Assembly: GCA_000196815.1 (NCBI GenBank)
Contig: FP929003.1
Location: 3,619,501 to 3,683,500, forward strand
Source: Nitrospira defluvii
GTDB lineage: Bacteria; Nitrospirota; Nitrospiria; Nitrospirales; Nitrospiraceae
Length of the DNA stretch: 64,000 nt
Direction of reading: 5' to 3'
The notes under the pieces were generated by a model, which saw only the letters and a program-made list of their open reading frames with translations, made no database searches and had not been told where the DNA came from. This document shows positions 52,731-63,045 of the stretch, piece after piece. A program made the position numbers and the translations under genes. Within the stretch, counting starts at the first letter, position 1; every line of letters starts with the position of its first letter.

Positions 52731-53057
52731 CGGCTGCGCTTCCCCTCACTCGTGACGCTCGCAGGGGCGGCCGCACAGGCGGCCCCTGCATCGTTGCACA
52801 ACCATGAGCGCGTCGAACTTCAGGATTCCGGCGCCTTTGAACCTCCCTCTATGGAACGCCAGGTCCCGCTCGGCTATGGTGTCGAGACGGCTTTCCTGAA
52901 GATCAATCGCGACTGCCTGAGCGACTACTCCGTACATCGGTCGGCGGAAGAGATTCGCCGAAACCGCTTCCCTGCAATTGAACCGATTGACTCCCCCCGT
53001 ATCCCTGCGTTATTGTCATGACCAGAATTGTGGTTATCTGAATCGGAGAGGCATTCC
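52731..53057. other. Intergenic region, no gene seen
   Basis: 327 bp between the globin and the antitoxin gene. A plus-strand frame at 52752-53021 has no ribosome site or domain and was not accepted. The AGAGG at 53046 serves the antitoxin gene. An autoregulatory operator for the toxin-antitoxin pair would be expected at its 3' end, but none was clear. Confidence 0.4.
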
Positions 53058-53354
53058 ATGGCGAAGACGCTGCCGTTATCGGAAGTGAAGACGAGACTAC
53101 CAGAACTGATTACCGGCGTCGATGAGCGCGAGGAAGAGGTCGTGGTCACGAAAAACGGCCGGCCGGCGGCTGTACTGATCAACGTGCAGGAATACACCCG
53201 GCTGAAGGACACGCTCGACGTGCTGAGCGATCCCGCGCTGATGCAGCAGATTGCAGAGAGCCGGGCGTTTTACAGAAAACGGAAGAAAGGCCTGTCGTTC
53301 GAAGAGCTGTTTGGCGAGCCGCTCACCCCGACAAAAAAGCGCCGCACGGCATGA
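53058..53354 (+). CDS. Phd/YefM-family antitoxin
   Basis: 98 aa. KTLPLSEVKTRLPELITGVD, then EEEVVVTKNGRPAAVLINVQ and EYTRLKDTLDVLSDP is the Phd/YefM DNA-binding fold; the C-terminal half (FYRKRKKGLSFEELFGE) is the toxin-wrapping segment. It overlaps the RelE-type toxin gene by 4 bp, the usual order antitoxin then toxin. It would bind and inactivate the toxin and repress the operon. Confidence 0.93.
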   Translation: MAKTLPLSEVKTRLPELITGVDEREEEVVVTKNGRPAAVLINVQEYTRLKDTLDVLSDPALMQQIAESRAFYRKRKKGLSFEELFGEPLTPTKKRRTA

Positions 53355-53638
53355 AGCCGTTTCAGCCCATGATCCCTCCGCATGTGGCGGAGATCATTCG
53401 TTCACTCCATCCCGACCTCAAACAGTCTATCAAAGCTGCCATCCGCGCGATTGCAGCCGATCCGGCCTGTGGCGAACCACTCCGCCGAGAACTGGAAGGG
53501 CTCAGGAAATATCGAGTGCGACGATTTCGAATCATCTACGCCGTGGATCATAAGGCTGGAGCCATTCGCCTCATGGCCGTCGGTCACCGGCGATCGATCT
53601 ACGAAGAATTGACGGACCGGATACGGAAGAAAGGCTGA
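53351..53638 (+). CDS. RelE/ParE-superfamily toxin
   Basis: 95 aa. LKQSIKAAIRAIAADPACGE, PLRRELEGLRKYRVRRFRII and YAVDHKAGAIRLMAVGHRR with a final helix RRSIYEELTDRIRKK matches the RelE/ParE beta-sheet toxin, including the RVRRFRIIY strand and VGHRR near the active site. It probably cleaves ribosome-bound mRNA, or inhibits gyrase if ParE-like; sequence alone does not decide. Translationally coupled to the antitoxin. Confidence 0.93.
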   Translation: MKPFQPMIPPHVAEIIRSLHPDLKQSIKAAIRAIAADPACGEPLRRELEGLRKYRVRRFRIIYAVDHKAGAIRLMAVGHRRSIYEELTDRIRKKG

Positions 53639-53778: not shown

Positions 53779-54171
53779 TTGCAAAGAGCGGAATTCCAAT
53801 ACAGTGCACGTTCCTTGCGGGTAAGGAGCTCGGAGTGGAAAAGTCGGCAGGTCTTCGTCACCCTAACCTATGACGTGGGGACGGAAAATATCGCTGATCG
53901 ACCGGGCGCCCCACGCGCATTCGTGATGGGCAGGAGTGCCAGCATCCGCTGGCAATTCGCACCGGAGTGGTATGCGGCGATCCGGCCGGAATTTTACTGG
54001 GACCGCAACGGACGATGGACGGGCAGCGAGCAATTCGTCAAGGCAATGACGACCACGCTGGACTATGCTCCGTTCTCTAACGGTGAGCCGCGCATCTTCA
54101 GCAATACCCACGTTCGGCTTGAGTACCGATGGGACGAATCGACAGGTGCCATATCGTTGCATGGCTTATAA
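53779..54171 (+). pseudogene. 3' fragment of an outer-membrane porin gene
   Basis: 130 aa open frame without a ribosome site. The part from residue 26 on (VFVTLTYDVGTENI, then SASIRWQFAPEWYAAIRPEF, YWDRNGRWTGSEQFVKAMTT, TLDYAPFSNG, RLEYRWDESTG) reads like the last strands of a carbohydrate-type OM porin of the putative beta-barrel porin-2 group. The first few hundred residues are missing. It follows the toxin gene and marks the left border of the accessory region. Confidence 0.6.
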
Positions 54172-54352
54172 GAGGGGAGAAGAGGTCCGAGTTGACGCGG
54201 ATTCCGTGGACTGCGCGCCACCCCGATTCTGAACTCGATCCTCAAACATCGCAGCCCATGGCGGGTGTCGGAGCCTCATCATGCATAACTCGCAAGACAG
54301 TTGCTGGCACCATTTCTGCATCCCTCGGACAATTACTCGGGCAGGCTCCTCG

Positions 54353-57300
54353 TTAATCGAGATCTCTGCCGCATGAGAATTCTTCTGTAACCTCCACAAG
54401 GCGACTGATCCGTTTCTTCACGCCCTCAATAAAGCGTTTATCTATCGCTAGTCTTTTGTCTTGGTCGACAGAGGCGCGAGCCACATGGAACAGCCGCAGC
54501 GCGGCGTGAATGTCTGGCGTGCGCTGTGGGCATTCTTTTTGAGTGGCATCGATCAGGGCGATCAATCCATAGACGTCAGCTCTCTCCCAGAGAAAAGGGG
54601 AGGATTTCGTCTGTTGCTCTAGAACAGACTCGGACTCATAGAGTTTCCTAGCCTGTGCGCGTGCATAGAACAAGGCAGTTTTGTGAGCCAGAAGTTCTCT
54701 GATTCGGTGGCGAACGTTGGCAAAGTCCTGGCAGATCTGGAGACGGGCGCTGAACGTATTTCTTACGGATGGCAGATTGGAGGTCGGATTGTCTCCGCAA
54801 GAAGAGCCTCCTCGCAAGTCATCTTCTTCGAGCAAAGCATAGTCGTCCGGTTGCGTCTTATCGTCCGCCTGGCACTCAGGGGCAATCTGCTTGAAGTGGC
54901 CGAGAAGAGCCTCTATTGCCTTTTTGACCCCGATGGGAAGGGACAATTTGTCTACACTTTTTCGTATGTTGCGGCATGCAACATTCACTGTCTCGATCGT
55001 GGTTTCATTTGACCCTTCCGCGAACGTGGTCAACGTCGAAAGCTCATTGCTGCCGTGACCATTAGGAAAGGTCTGGTTAAGCCATGCGTCGACGTCCTGA
55101 CCCAAGATAAACTCGCTGCGGCCTTCGACAGGAGAAGGGGACAGGGCAATGTACTTAGCATACTGAAGCGCAAAATACTCTTCTGCCCGAGAGAATCGTT
55201 TTCGGGCGACATGTTTGTCCTTGAGGGCAGTGTCGGGCAGCCAGTCAATTCGCTTTTTCTTGGCTTCAGCCTTTTCACGGGCCAGGAACAACTGATCGAG
55301 CCCACCATGAAAGTCACGATTGAGGTGAATGGAGTAATGGCCTAAAAGAAACGAGAGATTGTAGTCGTCCGGGAAGGTTGTGACTCCTCGGTAGAGGTAA
55401 TGGAAGCCCTCGGTTGTTTTTCCTTGGAGCATTGAAAATCTTGCCAGCAGCCAGTCATACAAAGGAGACTCGACATGGGCTCCTGGATCGGTCAGCAGAT
55501 GCGCGATGAATTTTTCCGCCCACGAATCAATGGCCTTCTTTTCCGTCGTGATCGTAGAAGATGGGGGTTTCGGGTTCAACAACGCGGACACATATCCCTT
55601 CATGTCGGGAGGCGTAGGAAGCGCCGTCAACAAGCCTGCAAGTTTGGTTGTAGGGGAATTGGATAATGACTTCTCCGGTTCTCCTTCACTGGAATCGCAT
55701 GCAGGGACTGAGTCGACTGTTGAGCGCAATAAGGATTGGGGAGGCAAGTGGAACTCAATACAGAGATCGCAATATGGAAGTGAGCCGATTGATGATTGCG
55801 ACCCAAATGCTGAACGGATAATCATGTCTTGCTTGATTCGACACTTCATGAATTGGTCGAATTCCATGGAACTCGCTGGAATTTCTAAGAGATCCAACGC
55901 TCTTCTTTCGTTCGCGTACAAGTCCCAAAGTGTGCTTCGGAGTTGAGTCAGCTGAGTTGAACGATTCTCCGTGATCTTCTTCGAAAAGTCTTCGCTGGTC
56001 TTGGTCAGAACTTCAAGCAACACCCCGACTTTATTGGCGACCAAGTGAGGCGTCTCGAAGTTCGTCGGCCAGCAATAGTGGCGGCCCGGGTTGACAATTC
56101 TGTCGCAGCTCGCTGCATATCGTTTGTCCGCCAGCTCTTCGTATTGTTTCTTGATCGTACCGGACATTTCCGCAACCACCGCTCGTCCTGCCAGGATGAG
56201 GGTGTCGATTTCGTCCTTACTCGGGAGTAAACCCACATTATTGAGGTCGCTGAGGACCTTCCGCTCCATTTCTGTGAAATCGAATGTCTGTGCGACCTCG
56301 TTGATGGAGTCGGTGGTCGAATTCGTTTTGCGCTGAATCAGAAGGCTCTGTCTGACGATCCTCGTCACGACTCGGCTGTTCTTGACGAGATCGCGCATGT
56401 TCAGCTCGACGACCCCAAAGCCGAAGTTGTCCAGCATTTGCTGTGCGACGATGCGAGAGAGATCGGTGCGATCCCTCATCAGGACGTCAAAGCTGTCGTC
56501 GAGGTGGCCTCCCATGCCTGGTAATGAGGAGGTGGCGCTCACGCCCGCATTGACGATGAGCAGGAACGCCTTTTGGGATTTCGGGTTCGCTTTTTGGGCC
56601 GTGGTGAGGTCCGTGATCTCTGCATTGGCAAGAAAAGATCTGGCGGTCTCGCCAGGGGAAACAATCAGGCCATGGCCGTTCGCCAATGCCTGCTCCTCCT
56701 CACGGAACTCATCCCTATTTTTTCGTTCAAAGATGGCTCTGAGCAAACCTGTTACGCCAAGATTGTCGCTGACACCCCCATCCACCAGGATCGGTGATCT
56801 TACTTGATCGCCTACGATGAGCGGGCAGTTTGTGGGAATGAGTTTTGCCTCGGTGTTCTGCAGGAGTGATTTCAAGCGTATCGGCGAGAAGATCCCAGGG
56901 AGACTGCTCGATGCCGCCACGGCGGTTGCCAGATCGAGCTTTCGAAAACCATCGACATCACCAAGGCAGGCGAATGTCTCTTTGTCGAAGGTGAATACCC
57001 TGCCGTTGACGATGTCGGTTGCATTGATCAATAGTTTGGCTTGTCCTATGTTGCTCTGATGATTCCCTGCTTTTCCGAACAGAGATCCTGCCAGTGTCTC
57101 CGTGCGCGTTGTTTGTTCTTCTAAGTCCCCGAATGTATGGCCGTGCAAGAAAAGATCATTATAAACCGGCCTGAGTTGCTCGCCCTCGAATAGACCGTCA
57201 TAGAGCCACATCGTTGCAAGCGGAGCCACCTCGACCTCCGGGACCGGGAGGATTGGGAGCTTGAATGTCTGAAAGATGGTGTCGAGCAATGAGGCGAACA

Positions 57301-57826
57301 GCATGACTGGGGGACGCCAGATAGGGGTTTTCTTTTTCCCCGATATGAGCTGTCTCGCCAGGCGGGCGTCCTTGAGCGATTGTCCGAACTCAGCCAGGCG
57401 GTTAGGATGTGTCTTGTAGTAGGCGGCCGTGATGGCCCCGCCGGAGACGCCGGAGAGAAAGTGCGTATTATCCAGAAACGAGGCCCTTCCACCTTGCCCG
57501 CAGGGGCTTGAACGGTCGTCATCCGAGAAGTCTTTGTCTTCAAGATACTGTAGAGAGAACCGTGTGGGAGGGGCTTTGTAGCCGTTGTGATTGTCAGAGT
57601 CTGTAGAATCTTCCTGCGGTTTCAGCACACAGAGCTTGCGCAATTCTAGCATGACGCCGTGGGAAAAAGCCGCCGCACGCAACCCTCCACCTGATAGCGA
57701 AATTCCAATCCATGGTGCCGCTTTCTGATCGTATTCCGAGTGTGGGTGACTCGGAAAGGCAGTTAACGGTAAGAGCAGCGTGAATGTGAAGGCAAGGGTG
57801 CCGACAGATGTGCATGCTTTCCACAT
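54353..57826 (-). CDS. Exported patatin-like phospholipase with a large unassigned C-terminal half
   Basis: 1157 aa from the ATG at 57826 (GAGAGGACG upstream); the frame is open to 57988. A signal peptide (TLAFTFTLLLPLTAFP) precedes a patatin core: oxyanion loop SGGGLR at 45-50, nucleophile GVSGG at 126-130 (Ser128) and the acid in DGG at 349-351 (Asp349). The rest, about 800 residues, is helical with TPR-like pieces (FSMLQGKTTEGFHYLYRGVT, LLGHYSIHLNRDF). It would hydrolyse acyl esters of phospholipids in the periplasm or outside. Last gene of the four-gene lipoprotein operon. Most patatins of defence systems are cytoplasmic, so this one acts elsewhere. Confidence 0.9.
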   Translation of the reverse strand: MWKACTSVGTLAFTFTLLLPLTAFPSHPHSEYDQKAAPWIGISLSGGGLRAAAFSHGVMLELRKLCVLKPQEDSTDSDNHNGYKAPPTRFSLQYLEDKDFSDDDRSSPCGQGGRASFLDNTHFLSGVSGGAITAAYYKTHPNRLAEFGQSLKDARLARQLISGKKKTPIWRPPVMLFASLLDTIFQTFKLPILPVPEVEVAPLATMWLYDGLFEGEQLRPVYNDLFLHGHTFGDLEEQTTRTETLAGSLFGKAGNHQSNIGQAKLLINATDIVNGRVFTFDKETFACLGDVDGFRKLDLATAVAASSSLPGIFSPIRLKSLLQNTEAKLIPTNCPLIVGDQVRSPILVDGGVSDNLGVTGLLRAIFERKNRDEFREEEQALANGHGLIVSPGETARSFLANAEITDLTTAQKANPKSQKAFLLIVNAGVSATSSLPGMGGHLDDSFDVLMRDRTDLSRIVAQQMLDNFGFGVVELNMRDLVKNSRVVTRIVRQSLLIQRKTNSTTDSINEVAQTFDFTEMERKVLSDLNNVGLLPSKDEIDTLILAGRAVVAEMSGTIKKQYEELADKRYAASCDRIVNPGRHYCWPTNFETPHLVANKVGVLLEVLTKTSEDFSKKITENRSTQLTQLRSTLWDLYANERRALDLLEIPASSMEFDQFMKCRIKQDMIIRSAFGSQSSIGSLPYCDLCIEFHLPPQSLLRSTVDSVPACDSSEGEPEKSLSNSPTTKLAGLLTALPTPPDMKGYVSALLNPKPPSSTITTEKKAIDSWAEKFIAHLLTDPGAHVESPLYDWLLARFSMLQGKTTEGFHYLYRGVTTFPDDYNLSFLLGHYSIHLNRDFHGGLDQLFLAREKAEAKKKRIDWLPDTALKDKHVARKRFSRAEEYFALQYAKYIALSPSPVEGRSEFILGQDVDAWLNQTFPNGHGSNELSTLTTFAEGSNETTIETVNVACRNIRKSVDKLSLPIGVKKAIEALLGHFKQIAPECQADDKTQPDDYALLEEDDLRGGSSCGDNPTSNLPSVRNTFSARLQICQDFANVRHRIRELLAHKTALFYARAQARKLYESESVLEQQTKSSPFLWERADVYGLIALIDATQKECPQRTPDIHAALRLFHVARASVDQDKRLAIDKRFIEGVKKRISRLVEVTEEFSCGRDLD

Positions 57827-57905
57827 GGAGGCGTCCTCTCTCACCGGTTTTGTCTCGGTTGCAGGATTCGGTGGGAAGATAGTGAGGGATTCACATTGTT
57901 GTCTC

Positions 57906-58961
57906 CTAGGGCGCCTTTTGGGCCGGTACTTTGGCCTTGATTGCGTCGCCGAGTTTAAGCACGCTCTCGAGTGCTGTGCGCGCGTCATTAATCGTCGTCG
58001 ACACCTGCAGCTCCTTATCTTTGATTTTTGCGACTAGTTGCGTTGCCGCTTCCTTGGTCTTTTGTGCCTTTGATCGAATCTCTTCAGTTCTTGTTGCCTT
58101 GTCGGCCTTTTCGATTGCGCTCTGCGCCTTTGTTTTCGCCTCTTCGAGGCGGTTGATCGTGCCTGCCCCCAATTGAAGACGCATTGCGGCAGTTTGTAGT
58201 TCCGTTGCGTCCTTACCTAATTGTTTGAGCTTCTTTTCCGCCTCTTTCTGGGCTTCGCTATTGGACGTTTGGTCGTCAAGCGTCGATGAAGCGTTCTCAG
58301 CGTCATCCTTGATTTTTCGAATCGTCGTTTCTAGCGTTTGGGCTTGCTGGAGGAGCTTGTCGACACTTTCCTTGGTGTTTTTAATCAACTGCGTCGCATC
58401 GCGAACGTCGTTTCCAGCCTCCTCGGCTCCCCTCTTATCTTCCTCCTCCTGCGTCAATCCACGGATAAGGTGTCTTGCCGCACAGCCGGTTGCAAAATAC
58501 TGCTCGATCTTGGCCGGACCGAACCAGTTCACAGCTAAATGGAATACGGCCAATACCGAGAAGGCGTCTTTTGCCCTATTTGTCTTGCTGTCGCCCTGAG
58601 CCTGCTTTGGGGGTATGGTTTCTGAGCATCCACGTTCTGATGAAGCGGCGGTCTGTTCCGTCTTGCCGTTTGGCAATGAAGTGCTGCCGGCTCCTGATTG
58701 TGATGAAGTCAAACCAGGGGTTGTTCCGGCAGGCTTAGGCAGCTCCTTGTCCAGCTTAGTCACGGGAACCAGGGCCAACTCCGCTCGCTTATAGCCGAAC
58801 GTAATGGTCGGAGGTGTTTCATTAACCGGCGGGGTCGCTTCCAGGCCTACTGTGGTGCCGGTGGAAAAATAGACAGCAGGATTCTTCAGGCAACAGGCAG
58901 TCAGCAAGAGCAGAATCGGAACCGTCAGCCATCGGTGTAAACGGAGGTGTGGGAGCATCAT
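57906..58961 (-). CDS. Coiled-coil lipoprotein, paralogue of its upstream neighbour
   Basis: 351 aa. Lipobox VPILLLLTACCLKNP. Residues 30-190 share a domain with the protein at 58994-59467: TGTTVGLEATPP / TATKFGLEISQV, PPTITFGYKRAELALVP / PPKVVLGYKREETTIIP, DAFSVLAVFHL / DTYSVLAEFCV and YFATGCAARH / FFATGLAAAQ. From residue 200 onward it is a long charged coiled coil (LLQQAQTLETTIRKIKDDAE, RLEEAKTKAQSAIEKADKAT). A periplasm-spanning lipoprotein or an anchor for the lipase is plausible. Third gene of the operon. Confidence 0.82.
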   Translation of the reverse strand: MMLPHLRLHRWLTVPILLLLTACCLKNPAVYFSTGTTVGLEATPPVNETPPTITFGYKRAELALVPVTKLDKELPKPAGTTPGLTSSQSGAGSTSLPNGKTEQTAASSERGCSETIPPKQAQGDSKTNRAKDAFSVLAVFHLAVNWFGPAKIEQYFATGCAARHLIRGLTQEEEDKRGAEEAGNDVRDATQLIKNTKESVDKLLQQAQTLETTIRKIKDDAENASSTLDDQTSNSEAQKEAEKKLKQLGKDATELQTAAMRLQLGAGTINRLEEAKTKAQSAIEKADKATRTEEIRSKAQKTKEAATQLVAKIKDKELQVSTTINDARTALESVLKLGDAIKAKVPAQKAP

Positions 58962-58993
58962 GGCCTTGATCCCTTCCTGCTGTACGGTTTCGG

Positions 58994-59467
58994 CTAGAAG
59001 CAGCGCTTCTCTTTACGCTTGTTGTCGGTTCGTTCCAGCATATTGTCCCTAAAGTAGTGTCGGGTCTTGACGCTGTCGGCGGCTTGGGCGGCTGCGAGCC
59101 CGGTGGCAAAAAACGAACGGATCTGTAGGCCATCCGGCACGTCGCGACCCGTTGATGACAGACTCTCGAAGAAGTCCCACAGCGAAGGATTCGCCATCAC
59201 GCAGAACTCGGCGAGGACCGAGTAGGTATCGGTCTGCGTTTCGGTACCGTCGGATGTCGCATTCCTATGTTCGGCTGGAATTATGGTGGTTTCTTCTCGT
59301 TTGTAACCAAGCACGACTTTAGGCGGCTCTTTGGCCACTTGCGAGATTTCTAGGCCGAACTTCGTGGCGGTGGTGACCACAAGATAATTCTCACAACCAA
59401 GGAAGGAGCCTGCGACGACGACGAACCAAACTACTTGCAGCTGTCGGAGGAGCGGTAACGCCGTCAT
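58994..59467 (-). CDS. Lipoprotein with the shared GYKRxE domain
   Basis: 157 aa from the ATG at 59467, overlapping the upstream lipoprotein gene by 4 bp. Lipobox VVVAGSFLGCENY. It consists essentially of the domain shared with the next gene (GYKREE, YSVLAEF, FFATGLAAA), without the coiled coil. The duplication of this domain within one operon suggests a heteromeric envelope assembly. Function unknown. Confidence 0.8.
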   Translation of the reverse strand: MTALPLLRQLQVVWFVVVAGSFLGCENYLVVTTATKFGLEISQVAKEPPKVVLGYKREETTIIPAEHRNATSDGTETQTDTYSVLAEFCVMANPSLWDFFESLSSTGRDVPDGLQIRSFFATGLAAAQAADSVKTRHYFRDNMLERTDNKRKEKRCF

Positions 59468-60060
59468 TGGACCACCTCCTGTAAACATGGCTCGAGGGAT
59501 TCATTCTGTTTGGCATCACAGACCAGAAAGCGAGTCGCAATGGGACTGTTGCTTGAAAACTCTAAAAGGTAGAGCGCATCGGAGTGCGGCCAGAATCGAC
59601 TTGTGCGGGAGGTGCCGAATGTCAAATTCGATCCTTCCTTGTCGAGGCCGGTTGAAAGTTGAATGCCGACGATACGTTTCGCCACAAATTCCGCCTCGCG
59701 TACTCGTTGGATCGATGCATGAAACGGACTCATCTGCCAGGAGCCAATGGGGATCGTGGCAAGGGCATACCAGGAAAAAGGGTGGCGTTGAACCGCTGTT
59801 CCATCTGTCTGTCGAATGGCCAGGGGAACGCTCAGCAACTTGCTGAAGTAGCCGATGGTAATCCCCCATCGATTGCCGCCCTCGACCAACAGCGGCAACC
59901 AGGCTTGTTCTGCCAGAAAGGCTTGACTGTCAGGTGGAGCGGCGACACGAAAAAGCGTTGGTCCCCACAGGTGGTCCGCAGATTCACCGTGCCACACACA
60001 GCCAATTTGCACGCCAAGTATCACGGTTAAGAGAATGACCTTAAGATGCCCTGGGTCCAT
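59464..60060 (-). CDS. Lipoprotein of unknown function, first gene of the patatin operon
   Basis: 198 aa. Signal MDPGHLKVILLTVILGVQIGC with Cys21 in a fair lipobox (VQIGC). The mature part is beta-rich with aromatic stretches (WGITIGYFSKLLSVPLAIRQ, HPFSWYALATIPIGSWQMSP, SDALYLLEFSSNSPIATRF) and two C-terminal Cys. It does not share the GYKRxE domain. It is coupled by 4 bp to the next lipoprotein. Family not recognised. Confidence 0.75.
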   Translation of the reverse strand: MDPGHLKVILLTVILGVQIGCVWHGESADHLWGPTLFRVAAPPDSQAFLAEQAWLPLLVEGGNRWGITIGYFSKLLSVPLAIRQTDGTAVQRHPFSWYALATIPIGSWQMSPFHASIQRVREAEFVAKRIVGIQLSTGLDKEGSNLTFGTSRTSRFWPHSDALYLLEFSSNSPIATRFLVCDAKQNESLEPCLQEVVQ

Positions 60061-60630
60061 CGATAAGGGGCTCCTACGATTTTGAGACAGGTTCTATTAT
60101 GTAATCCCGGCTCATCCCCCTCCGCGGTTCAACCTTTCGGGCTTCAGCCGTGTGATTCAGGGGAGGGTGATTGAACTACCTACGTGGAAACAGGCAAATC
60201 TGAGGCCAGCGCAATGCGATGCGGAGAAGGGAATGCTTCCGAAACTGGGCCTAGGTGTTCTCAACTATTTGTACTGTAGTCCTAGGGATGACGGTGTGGC
60301 ACCGTGGTCATCATGTGTATCGGAATCGATAAACGCCTGTATCGGAAGTGATACTCCGAGACCGAAGGGAGAGTAGAGTCAAAAGGCTTTATTTTGACGA
60401 CGTGCATAAGCCGGTGGACCTTGTTCGACGTACTTGTCTCAAGGCCTACGGAACAATACGGGTATGAGTAAAGAGGCATGTTTGCAGTTCAAAGGCGAGG
60501 AACAGGAATGGCCGGGCATAACACTTGATCTTCCCCAATGAGTTGAATGCAAACTGGTGGTATGTATGAGGCAGGTTGCGTCGGTTGCCGAGCTTTTGAT
60601 TGGGTTGCCGTGGCGTGAGGAGGTGACCTT
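60061..60630. other. Divergent intergenic region of the patatin operon and the pYEATS gene
   Basis: 570 bp, longer than most gaps here. It holds the two operator-like palindromes at 60317-60354 and must hold both promoters. A frame at 60152-60376 was rejected as coding. GGAGGTGACC at 60622 is the ribosome site for the pYEATS gene. Confidence 0.6.
60317..60354. promoter_or_regulatory. Tandem operator candidate: GTATC-N6-GATAA and GTATC-N6-GATAC, 22 bp apart
   Basis: Site 1 at 60317-60332 has one mismatch (GATAA); site 2 at 60339-60354 is exact. Both have GGAA after GTATC. They are separated by 6 bp, giving four half-sites 11 bp apart, as at 37708-37747. They lie about 257 bp before the lipoprotein operon start (60060) and 277 bp before the pYEATS gene (60631), in the divergent region, and could control either or both. 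Confidence 0.65.
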
Positions 60631-61542
60631 ATGACGGACCACCAAGAAATCCTATTTTGGACGTTCATGGGGTTCTTCGTGGTCATCGGAATCCTGTCGC
60701 TGTTGGCGGTGTTGGGGCTCATCAAGGTCGATGAGCGGTTCCGGAAGTGGGCTGTGACAGTCTTCTTTGCGGGCGTGACCGGGGCGGTGGTGGGGCTCTT
60801 CAAACTCTCGTTCCCCGGCAGTGGGCTGGCTGAGCCGTTATTCGTGAGTTTGATTCCACCCGAGAACGTGAGCTCCCGGGCTATCAAGTTGGTCGCCGGA
60901 GGATATAGTTACGACGAGCCGACCGGGACGAATGAGGTGAAAACGGTCAACGGCAAAATCGAAGTTACCTGGGGCAACGACGTCTGGCAGGCCAAACTCC
61001 CACAGCAAGTCCTCGGGAAACCGGTGAAACTCTTTTTCAAGGATCAAGAAGGGAGTTGGTGGGAAGTCCATCCGTTCTACCCGAATCACAACAAACAGGA
61101 CATGTTCAAGGGATCCGGAAGGGACAGTAACCCACCGAACTCCCTGTGGCTCACTCCTTCCTCCGTGGCCTATGCTGCCTCGTCGGATGCCCGCTTGGCA
61201 GGCAGACCGTGGCCGGTGGCAGATGGGAAAAAGTCCCCCGTCAAGTTCAACAACTATGCGAGAGATGCAGGCGAGATTCATGGCCGGAAGTACTACGAGT
61301 GGCGCGTGTTCGTTGATGAACCCGACTCGGTACTGCAATCCATCAAAGAAGTGCAGTATGTCCTGCATCCAACCTTCCTCGAACCTCTTCAGGTATCGAG
61401 AGATGCGACGAAACAGTTCGAGTTGGTGACCTCCGGGTGGGGACAGTTCACTATCCTTATCACCATTGTGTACCGAGATGGGACCAGAGAGAAGGCGAGT
61501 TACTATCTCGACCTCAGCAAGAGTTGGCCATTCGATAGGTGA
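60631..61542 (+). CDS. Two-TM membrane protein with C-terminal pYEATS domain
   Basis: 303 aa. Two membrane helices at about 8-31 and 40-60 (ILFWTFMGFFVVIGILSLLA; WAVTVFFAGVTGAVVGLFKL) are followed by an unassigned middle domain (VTWGNDVWQAKLPQQVLGKP) and a pYEATS domain at 220-296: YYEWRVFVDEPDSVLQSIKE, VQYVLHPTFLEPLQVSRDAT, FELVTSGWGQFTILITIVYR and SYYLDLS. Prokaryotic YEATS domains are known from comparative genomics, often attached to membrane or effector modules; the ligand is unknown. GGAGG precedes the ATG. Transcribed divergently from the patatin operon. Confidence 0.88.
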   Translation: MTDHQEILFWTFMGFFVVIGILSLLAVLGLIKVDERFRKWAVTVFFAGVTGAVVGLFKLSFPGSGLAEPLFVSLIPPENVSSRAIKLVAGGYSYDEPTGTNEVKTVNGKIEVTWGNDVWQAKLPQQVLGKPVKLFFKDQEGSWWEVHPFYPNHNKQDMFKGSGRDSNPPNSLWLTPSSVAYAASSDARLAGRPWPVADGKKSPVKFNNYARDAGEIHGRKYYEWRVFVDEPDSVLQSIKEVQYVLHPTFLEPLQVSRDATKQFELVTSGWGQFTILITIVYRDGTREKASYYLDLSKSWPFDR

Positions 61543-61803
61543 CTCAACAGAGGAAGGCCTGATTAATTCACGGTTGTGCTGAGAAATCTGTTTATGGGCC
61601 GGTCAAGGAGGGTAATCAGGATCGGAAGGAAATCGTCCGAGAGCAGCTTCTCGGGATTCGCCCGCTGTCGGACGGCCCACTCGTGCAGGGCCTTTCCCCG
61701 CCGGCTACACCACCATCAACAGGTACCGCCTCGCCACGTATGCACGTATGAAACAAATGGGGTCGGGTCTTGCAATCCGACACCTGAGCTCCCTCGAATG
61801 GAA

Positions 61804-62091
61804 TCACAGGTTCGACCGTCGGCACCCATCCAATACCGCCTCGGCTTCGGTCGCGTAGCACCGTTCGGCTTTGGTATTCGCACAAAACCGTTCCCCAGAC
61901 TTGTGATAGATACATCGTTCACCGCTATGCGTCGTAAAATTGCCTTTGATAGGATGGGTTTCTGGGCAGTCGCCATTTGTGAATGGCGAGACACCTGAAC
62001 GATGCACTTTCGGCACGCGTTGCTTGGCCTCGGCTTGGGTTACCACCGAAACCAGCATGAGGATGACGACAGTCCAGGTAAGTGGTCGCAT
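61804..62091 (-). CDS. Secreted sunset-domain protein
   Basis: 95 aa. Signal peptide MRPLTWTVVILMLVSVVTQA. The mature part is one sunset-type domain: DCPETHPIKGNFTTHSGERC, IYHKSGERFCANTKAERCYA, TEAEAVLDGCRRSN. This domain is usually fused to thermonuclease-like or other secreted enzymes; here it stands alone, with extra Cys residues likely in disulfides. CTCCCGGG-type repeats aside, an inverted repeat GTATCC-N7-GGATAC lies 24 bp upstream of the start (62115-62133). Function unknown. Confidence 0.82.
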   Translation of the reverse strand: MRPLTWTVVILMLVSVVTQAEAKQRVPKVHRSGVSPFTNGDCPETHPIKGNFTTHSGERCIYHKSGERFCANTKAERCYATEAEAVLDGCRRSNL

Positions 62092-62258
62092 GGGCTCCTA
62101 CGCATCTCCCGGTAGTATCCGGCGGCAGGATACGAAGATTGGCGGGGCCAGTCAACGAACCGCAGAGGGGAAACCAAACTGGACCAGAACCCTTAACCGC
62201 CCTCTACGGGACCGGGATGTACACTCGCATCGAACCACACCCACCGCCAGCGCGCGCA

Positions 62259-62543
62259 TCATGGCTCTGTGGCGATCTCGCATTGAAGCTGCTCAAGCGC
62301 ATCCAGAATGCGGATGAATTTCCTGGCAAACGGGGTGACGGCATACTCCACGCGCGGCGGACTCTCATTATAATTGGTAAGGGCGATGATCTCGAAGGCC
62401 ATGTTCCATCGCGGACACTCGTTGAGCACTTTGGTCGTCAGCCACTCGACGCTGCGCACCATGTCGCCCGGCCGATTGATCCCGTCTGCCAACAGACGAT
62501 AGACCGTCAGCGACCATTTGCATCCATAGATCGTTTCGACCAT
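62259..62543 (-). CDS. HxlR-family transcriptional regulator
   Basis: 94 aa from the ATG at 62543 (GGAGCGGAG upstream). ETIYGCKWSLTVYRLLADG is the HxlR opening (usually preceded by 10-15 residues, here absent), then KVLNECPRWNMAFEIIALTN, ESPPRVEYAVTPFARKF and RILDALEQL complete the winged helix. Such proteins act as small repressors or activators responding to aldehydes or oxidants. It could be the regulator of a neighbouring transcription unit, but this is only positional. Confidence 0.82.
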   Translation of the reverse strand: MVETIYGCKWSLTVYRLLADGINRPGDMVRSVEWLTTKVLNECPRWNMAFEIIALTNYNESPPRVEYAVTPFARKFIRILDALEQLQCEIATEP

Positions 62544-63045
62544 TCTGGCGCTCCGCTCCGGAGCCGATTGTCGAGATTTTTTTCGCGCGTGGGATCTTCA
62601 AGATGGACCGATTCGTACCTACCACACCGGATTGTGCCTGCTGTCGGCATGCCGCGAATCTTCGTAGACTGCGTCGGTATGTTTTGCCTTTCCGCGCGGG
62701 AGACTTCGGCGTGAAGGACAACGTCGTGGCCTGTGGCATTAAGCCAGCGGGTGAGTATGACGGTCATTCCAACTTCAAGAAGCTGGTGTCACAGGGGTAT
62801 CAGATCATCACGTTCTAGTGGTCTAATACATTCGGTAGAGCAGAAACGAGGGAGTCTTTCGCCTCCGTTCTGCCGGGACCGCGTTATGCTAGTAGGCAAT
62901 CACCTGATCCGTTTCCGAGAAGAGCCGCACCATGCGATCGAGTGTCAATGGAGTGACGCCAGAGGAAGCGGATTGACGTGGACAAGACGGGTTGGTACAT
63001 AGACACGTCGTGTATCGTGTGACTGAAACCGAAGGAACTCCATCC
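62544..63045. other. Intergenic region, no supported gene
   Basis: 502 bp between the HxlR gene and the methyltransferase. A plus-strand tail at 62711-62818 (ending NFKKLVSQGYQIITF) looks protein-like and may be the 3' end of a lost gene, but its start and family are unclear. The rest shows no ORF or repeat; the composition rises back to high GC at 63000. Confidence 0.4.

Follow-up and report, generated by a model that had tools for sequence, protein, structure and literature searches.

A cassette of an apparently exported patatin-like phospholipase and three putative lipoproteins in Nitrospira defluvii, with lipoprotein families that recur beside other hydrolases

What use a predicted phospholipase has outside the cytoplasm, and why its gene follows three genes for putative lipoproteins, are questions raised by a locus of Nitrospira defluvii. 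The locus was analysed in a window of 64,000 nucleotides, the whole stretch of DNA under study, from a genome of 4,317,083 bases on a single contig. The translated frames form a cassette of four minus-strand genes (60060-54353) in the order lipA, lipB, lipC, patatin. The gene lipA (P0004, 59464..60060) encodes a 198-aa putatively exported protein and overlaps lipB (P0003, 58994..59467), which encodes a predicted 157-aa lipoprotein, by 4 bp. After 32 bp follows lipC (P0002, 57906..58961) for a predicted lipoprotein of 351 aa, and after a further 79 bp the patatin gene (P0001, 54353..57826) for 1157 aa, so that translation confirms the tight packing described in the initial annotation. The frame of P0001 is open further upstream to an ATG at 57988, which would give 1211 aa; the start at 57826 was preferred because homologues agree on it and it yields the N-terminal signal. 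Divergent from the cassette and 570 bp away lies P0005 (60631..61542, plus strand), with membrane segments and a prokaryotic YEATS domain (Pfam pYEATS, E 6.9e-23). GC content is 0.50-0.57 across 54-63 kb of the window versus 0.60-0.62 outside, and this drop suggests that 54000-63000 is an acquired island. Just downstream of the patatin gene, a Phd/YefM antitoxin and a ParE-type toxin are encoded as a pair at 53028-53638 on the plus strand. A plus-strand fragment at 53779-54171, with a weak resemblance to the C-terminal part of a BBP2/OmpL-like porin, is probably a remnant.

The only match of the cassette to a curated family is that of Pfam Patatin (PF01734) to residues 118-360 of P0001 (E 7.4e-15). 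The catalytic domain extends over about residues 38-360 and contains the GGGxR oxyanion loop, the GxSxG serine and the DG[GA] aspartate of patatins. All seven homologues, at identities down to about 30%, have GGG46-48, R50, S128-G-G and D349-G-G unchanged, which upholds the Ser128/Asp349 dyad assigned earlier. A hydrophobic, signal-like stretch was recognised by eye at the N-terminus of P0001 and of the homologues with a complete N-terminus, in agreement with the signal first proposed. Judged by sequence, P0001 would be exported by the Sec route and the lipoproteins would be lipidated. The remaining part of the protein had been left unassigned. An AlphaFold2 model based on seven sequences is of low overall quality (mean pLDDT 50.5), is helical after the catalytic domain without a beta-barrel, and predicts an all-helical region at higher confidence from about residue 740, with a pLDDT of about 75 from residue 790 on. 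A Foldseek search with this model placed TPR proteins first, the best at E 1.8e-3 and none at E <=0.001. The all-helical model and the sub-threshold TPR matches suggest that the C-terminal part is probably a helical-repeat arm, a hint rather than a result.

Three lipoproteins had been proposed beside the patatin. The lipoboxes of lipB and lipC are good, in line with the proposal, while that of P0004 (VQIGC) is non-canonical and degenerate, though its cysteine is invariant across 18 lipA relatives. By eye, an H..G...GixiG motif occurs about twice in lipA. The proteins lipB and lipC are paralogues of one unit with the pattern TxT..fGL....P...lGYkRxE...P, followed by FATGxAA; lipB consists of one such unit, and lipC of one unit plus a low-complexity helical tail, which draws chance coiled-coil matches in profile searches. 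Elsewhere the unit is fused as a tandem pair within one lipoprotein. No meaningful match to lipA, lipB or lipC was obtained in Pfam, NCBIfam, PADLOC or PHROGs, and sequence searches of the PDB gave no match. lipA and lipB/C are two undescribed families, and Pfam has no model for either. Their union in one family was considered, and hhalign found only a shared, hairpin-like match of 26 columns, which is insufficient. The AlphaFold2 model of lipB (pLDDT 71) predicts a long beta-hairpin without a counterpart among solved structures, as compared by Foldseek and by Z-score. A role of lipB as a pore is not claimed, as the Foldseek matches to stems of pore-forming toxins had E above 2 and no chain reached Z 2.

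Whether the four genes stay together had been named as a check on their partnership, and they do so in six Nitrospirota genomes (the window genome, G007, G004, G040, G028 and G294), with patatin identity down to about 30%. A search of 149 related genomes yielded the full-length patatin together with the trio, in unchanged order, in G004, G007 and G040, while the G028 contig breaks off within the patatin gene; a profile search of the phylum added G294, which has the complete cassette. Purifying selection acts on all four genes (dN/dS 0.08-0.52, four genomes compared), and lipC evolves fastest. Since the order recurs in five other genomes and all genes are under purifying selection, the cassette is not a chance arrangement. 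Relatives of the trio occur in 9 of the 149 related genomes. The genes around the cassette differ from genome to genome, and transposases lie near it at two loci (L048 and L178), flanking it in G007 and beside it in G294. No relatives were detected in phages, and plasmids gave only a weak patatin match.

The trio accompanies six of the seven long-form patatin homologues, the exception being G020 (locus L052), where a full-length patatin stands without it. The nearest relatives of the catalytic domain are mostly apparently exported patatins of about 450-490 aa (PF01734), which have the same catalytic motifs and N-terminal hydrophobic segment as P0001 but not its predicted helical C-terminal part of 650-800 residues, nor the lipoproteins. 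The outcome for the association of patatin and lipoproteins, as initially proposed, is mixed: it holds for the long forms with one exception and not, for the most part, for the short ones. Of 79 homologues from other bacteria (median length 489 aa), 76 have a hydrophobic segment ahead of GGGxR; the loci of all 79 contain no lipB/C relative, and the only lipA score there was weak and fell on the patatin frame itself. These relatives were found by an alignment-based scan, P0001 as a single-sequence query having found nothing in the wider genome contigs. The window genome itself also encodes a short exported patatin in a frame of 457 aa. Elsewhere in this genome a partial patatin match is located within an open frame of 1390 aa (L004, G000:C1:542660-542806).

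The lipoprotein families reach beyond this cassette, with members in both Nitrospirota and Gammaproteobacteria. Of 396 Nitrospirota genomes, 19 have a match to the lipB/C profile, as have, for a Methylococcaceae bacterium, 3 of 369 genomes in its class and 9 of 201 in its order. Various enzymes are encoded beside the lipoprotein pair: alpha/beta-hydrolase lipoproteins (L179, L180, L188, L191, L231), lipoprotein patatins (L183, L186, L235), CHAP (L182, L235), DUF2272 (L197, L237), a phage-type lysozyme of GH24 (L232, L234) and Amidase_3 (L236). At L196 (2128-10275), a Methylococcaceae locus, a 997-aa patatin, a class-3 lipase, GH19, lipBC, lipA and an alpha/beta-hydrolase lipoprotein follow each other on one strand. 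Of 82 module proteins, 57 conform to a strict lipobox pattern; in many of the others a hydrophobic stretch followed by a cysteine was seen by eye, but position -3 is occupied by unusual residues.

The surroundings of the lipoproteins were compared all-against-all and unsupervised, with 198 ORFs within 3.5 kb as the near set and 217 ORFs as the far set. A membrane protein (4 loci), a lipoprotein patatin (3 loci) and a response regulator (3 loci) recurred near and never far, as did CHAP, DUF2272, GH24, a 499/691-aa hydrolase and pYEATS at 2 loci each; syntenic household genes recur as expected. The membrane protein family is unannotated and absent from the far flanks; its genes are located at L188 (9232-10200), L055 (5979-7028), L232 (5042-6289) and L234 (5039-6286). 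A patatin HMM, built from patatins outside these loci and used together with the cassette profile, found ten patatins in 527 kb of module loci. All ten share the strand of the lipoproteins and are no more than 2.6 kb away from them, compared with 4 patatins in the 4.3-Mb window genome; the count includes several orthologues, four of them patatins of the cassette, and lipoproteins rather than patatins were the criterion by which the loci were picked. The background rate of hydrolases was taken from the far flanks and from the patatin count of the window genome.

These data suggest a type of envelope weapon or defence module that has so far gone unrecognised. It is plausible, if a little short of even, that the cassette is an accessory, horizontally moving envelope-hydrolase module in which the lipoproteins restrain, activate or anchor the enzyme. 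Its accessory status follows from the presence in 9 of 149 genomes, the changing flanks, the nearby transposases and the low GC content. More tentatively, the cassette is proposed as the exported-patatin version of a modular class of envelope conflict systems, in which a constant lipoprotein pair or trio is combined with swappable phospholipases, lipases and peptidoglycan hydrolases. The constant part would be lipA and the lipB/lipC lipoproteins, and the variable part an envelope-attacking enzyme, here a putatively Sec-exported phospholipase. In the module reading, the lipoproteins would most likely be made first and would sit at the periplasmic face of a membrane, where they may bind and hold it. 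They would keep it off the cell's own phospholipids, and would pass it on or set it free for its action on a foreign or damaged envelope.

Defence-type genes at some module loci would agree with a different explanation, a self-directed lysis of the envelope or abortive defence. Here, the lipoproteins would be part of a complex for lysis or sensing, and a signal, e.g. phage attack, would make the hydrolase destroy the cell's own envelope. One run of genes at L055 (927-8121) encodes TPR-S, a CBASS-type phospholipase, TIR, pYEATS-TIR and a membrane protein, then lipA and lipBC. L188 holds a SIR2-like gene and L189 an FRG gene matching PDC-S15, and the order membrane protein, phage-type lysozyme, lipA, lipBC at L232 and L234 recalls a lysis cassette. 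The pYEATS gene adjoining the window cassette is of a rare type, present in 9 of the 149 relatives; for two of these genes, those of the window and G013, the distance to a lipoprotein pair is at most about 2 kb. P0005 is a possible associate of the cassette, outside its conserved part; the other five patatin cassettes have no accompanying pYEATS. Sensors or cyclases are missing from most loci, and PADLOC returned no defence model above chance for the four cassette proteins and none for P0005. A CD-NTase cyclase model had no PADLOC match among the cassette proteins, P0005 and the two toxin-antitoxin genes, the other neighbours being read by eye. P0001 shares the patatin fold and the Ser-Asp dyad with the phospholipase effectors of CBASS (CapV type), but is apparently exported and matches no PADLOC effector model, whereas two cytoplasmic patatins, those of L055 and L236, are recognised by the CBASS phospholipase models. 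Its separation from CBASS in the initial annotation is thereby supported, and self-directed lysis as a whole is judged somewhat unlikely.

A housekeeping or stress-related editing of lipids in the cell's own envelope would agree with an exported enzyme, an intact active site and purifying selection on all genes, and short exported patatins are indeed common and conserved, the window genome included. This explanation is unlikely in view of the patchy presence, the changing flanks and the low GC content, and peptidoglycan hydrolases replace the lipase at other loci. The swapping seen around the lipoproteins favours a conflict-type system over plain lipid editing. Among such systems, Tle phospholipases of Type VI secretion have lipoprotein immunity proteins, Tli (PMC10294624, PMC9860674), and in Enterobacter cloacae Tli is a lipoprotein of the periplasm (PMC10294624). 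As in the cassette, a phospholipase gene is found beside one or more lipoprotein genes; unlike Tle/Tli, the cassette combines a Sec-like signal on the patatin with three lipoproteins whose families recur with other enzyme classes. The sheath gene (VipB) is present in the window genome (G000), G004, G007 and G028. The assignment as a Type VI effector with its immunity is strained by G040 and G294, which have the cassette and no detectable VipB, and inspection of the cassette neighbours revealed no PAAR, VgrG or Hcp; such an assignment is very improbable. Since the sheath gene was likewise not found in G446, G865 and G951, carriers of peptidoglycan hydrolase versions, Tle/Tli is an analogy for the cooperation of phospholipase and lipoprotein, not an assignment. 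The Type Vd patatin autotransporters PlpD and FplA are exported patatins, as P0001 appears to be. PlpD has a POTRA domain and a 16-stranded barrel besides (PMC11116518), while P0001 has no POTRA or barrel domain in Pfam and is predicted to be helical after its catalytic domain. A contact-dependent toxin system had also been considered at the outset; the neighbourhood of the cassette showed no machinery of that kind. Among the papers searched, none was on pYEATS or on patatin together with Nitrospira lipoproteins.

The reading as a modular envelope-hydrolase system is preferred, and several observations weigh on it. Immunity proteins usually match one toxin fold. Here the lipoprotein families stay while the enzyme fold changes, and therefore the restraining or anchoring role may be wrong. 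The partnership of hydrolase and lipoproteins rests on gene neighbourhood, which is no proof of it. Against a module stand the G020 patatin without the trio, lipoproteins without a recognisable hydrolase (L054 and others), and the lack of an export signal in many of the swapped peptidoglycan hydrolases. If the preferred reading is true, two unannotated lipoprotein families would mark gene clusters in nitrifiers and methanotrophs, in which envelope-degrading enzymes have dedicated partners in the envelope and no known secretion apparatus is involved. The constant lipoproteins would then be a handle for finding further modules, and would offer a way to test how a cell exports a phospholipase without harming itself.
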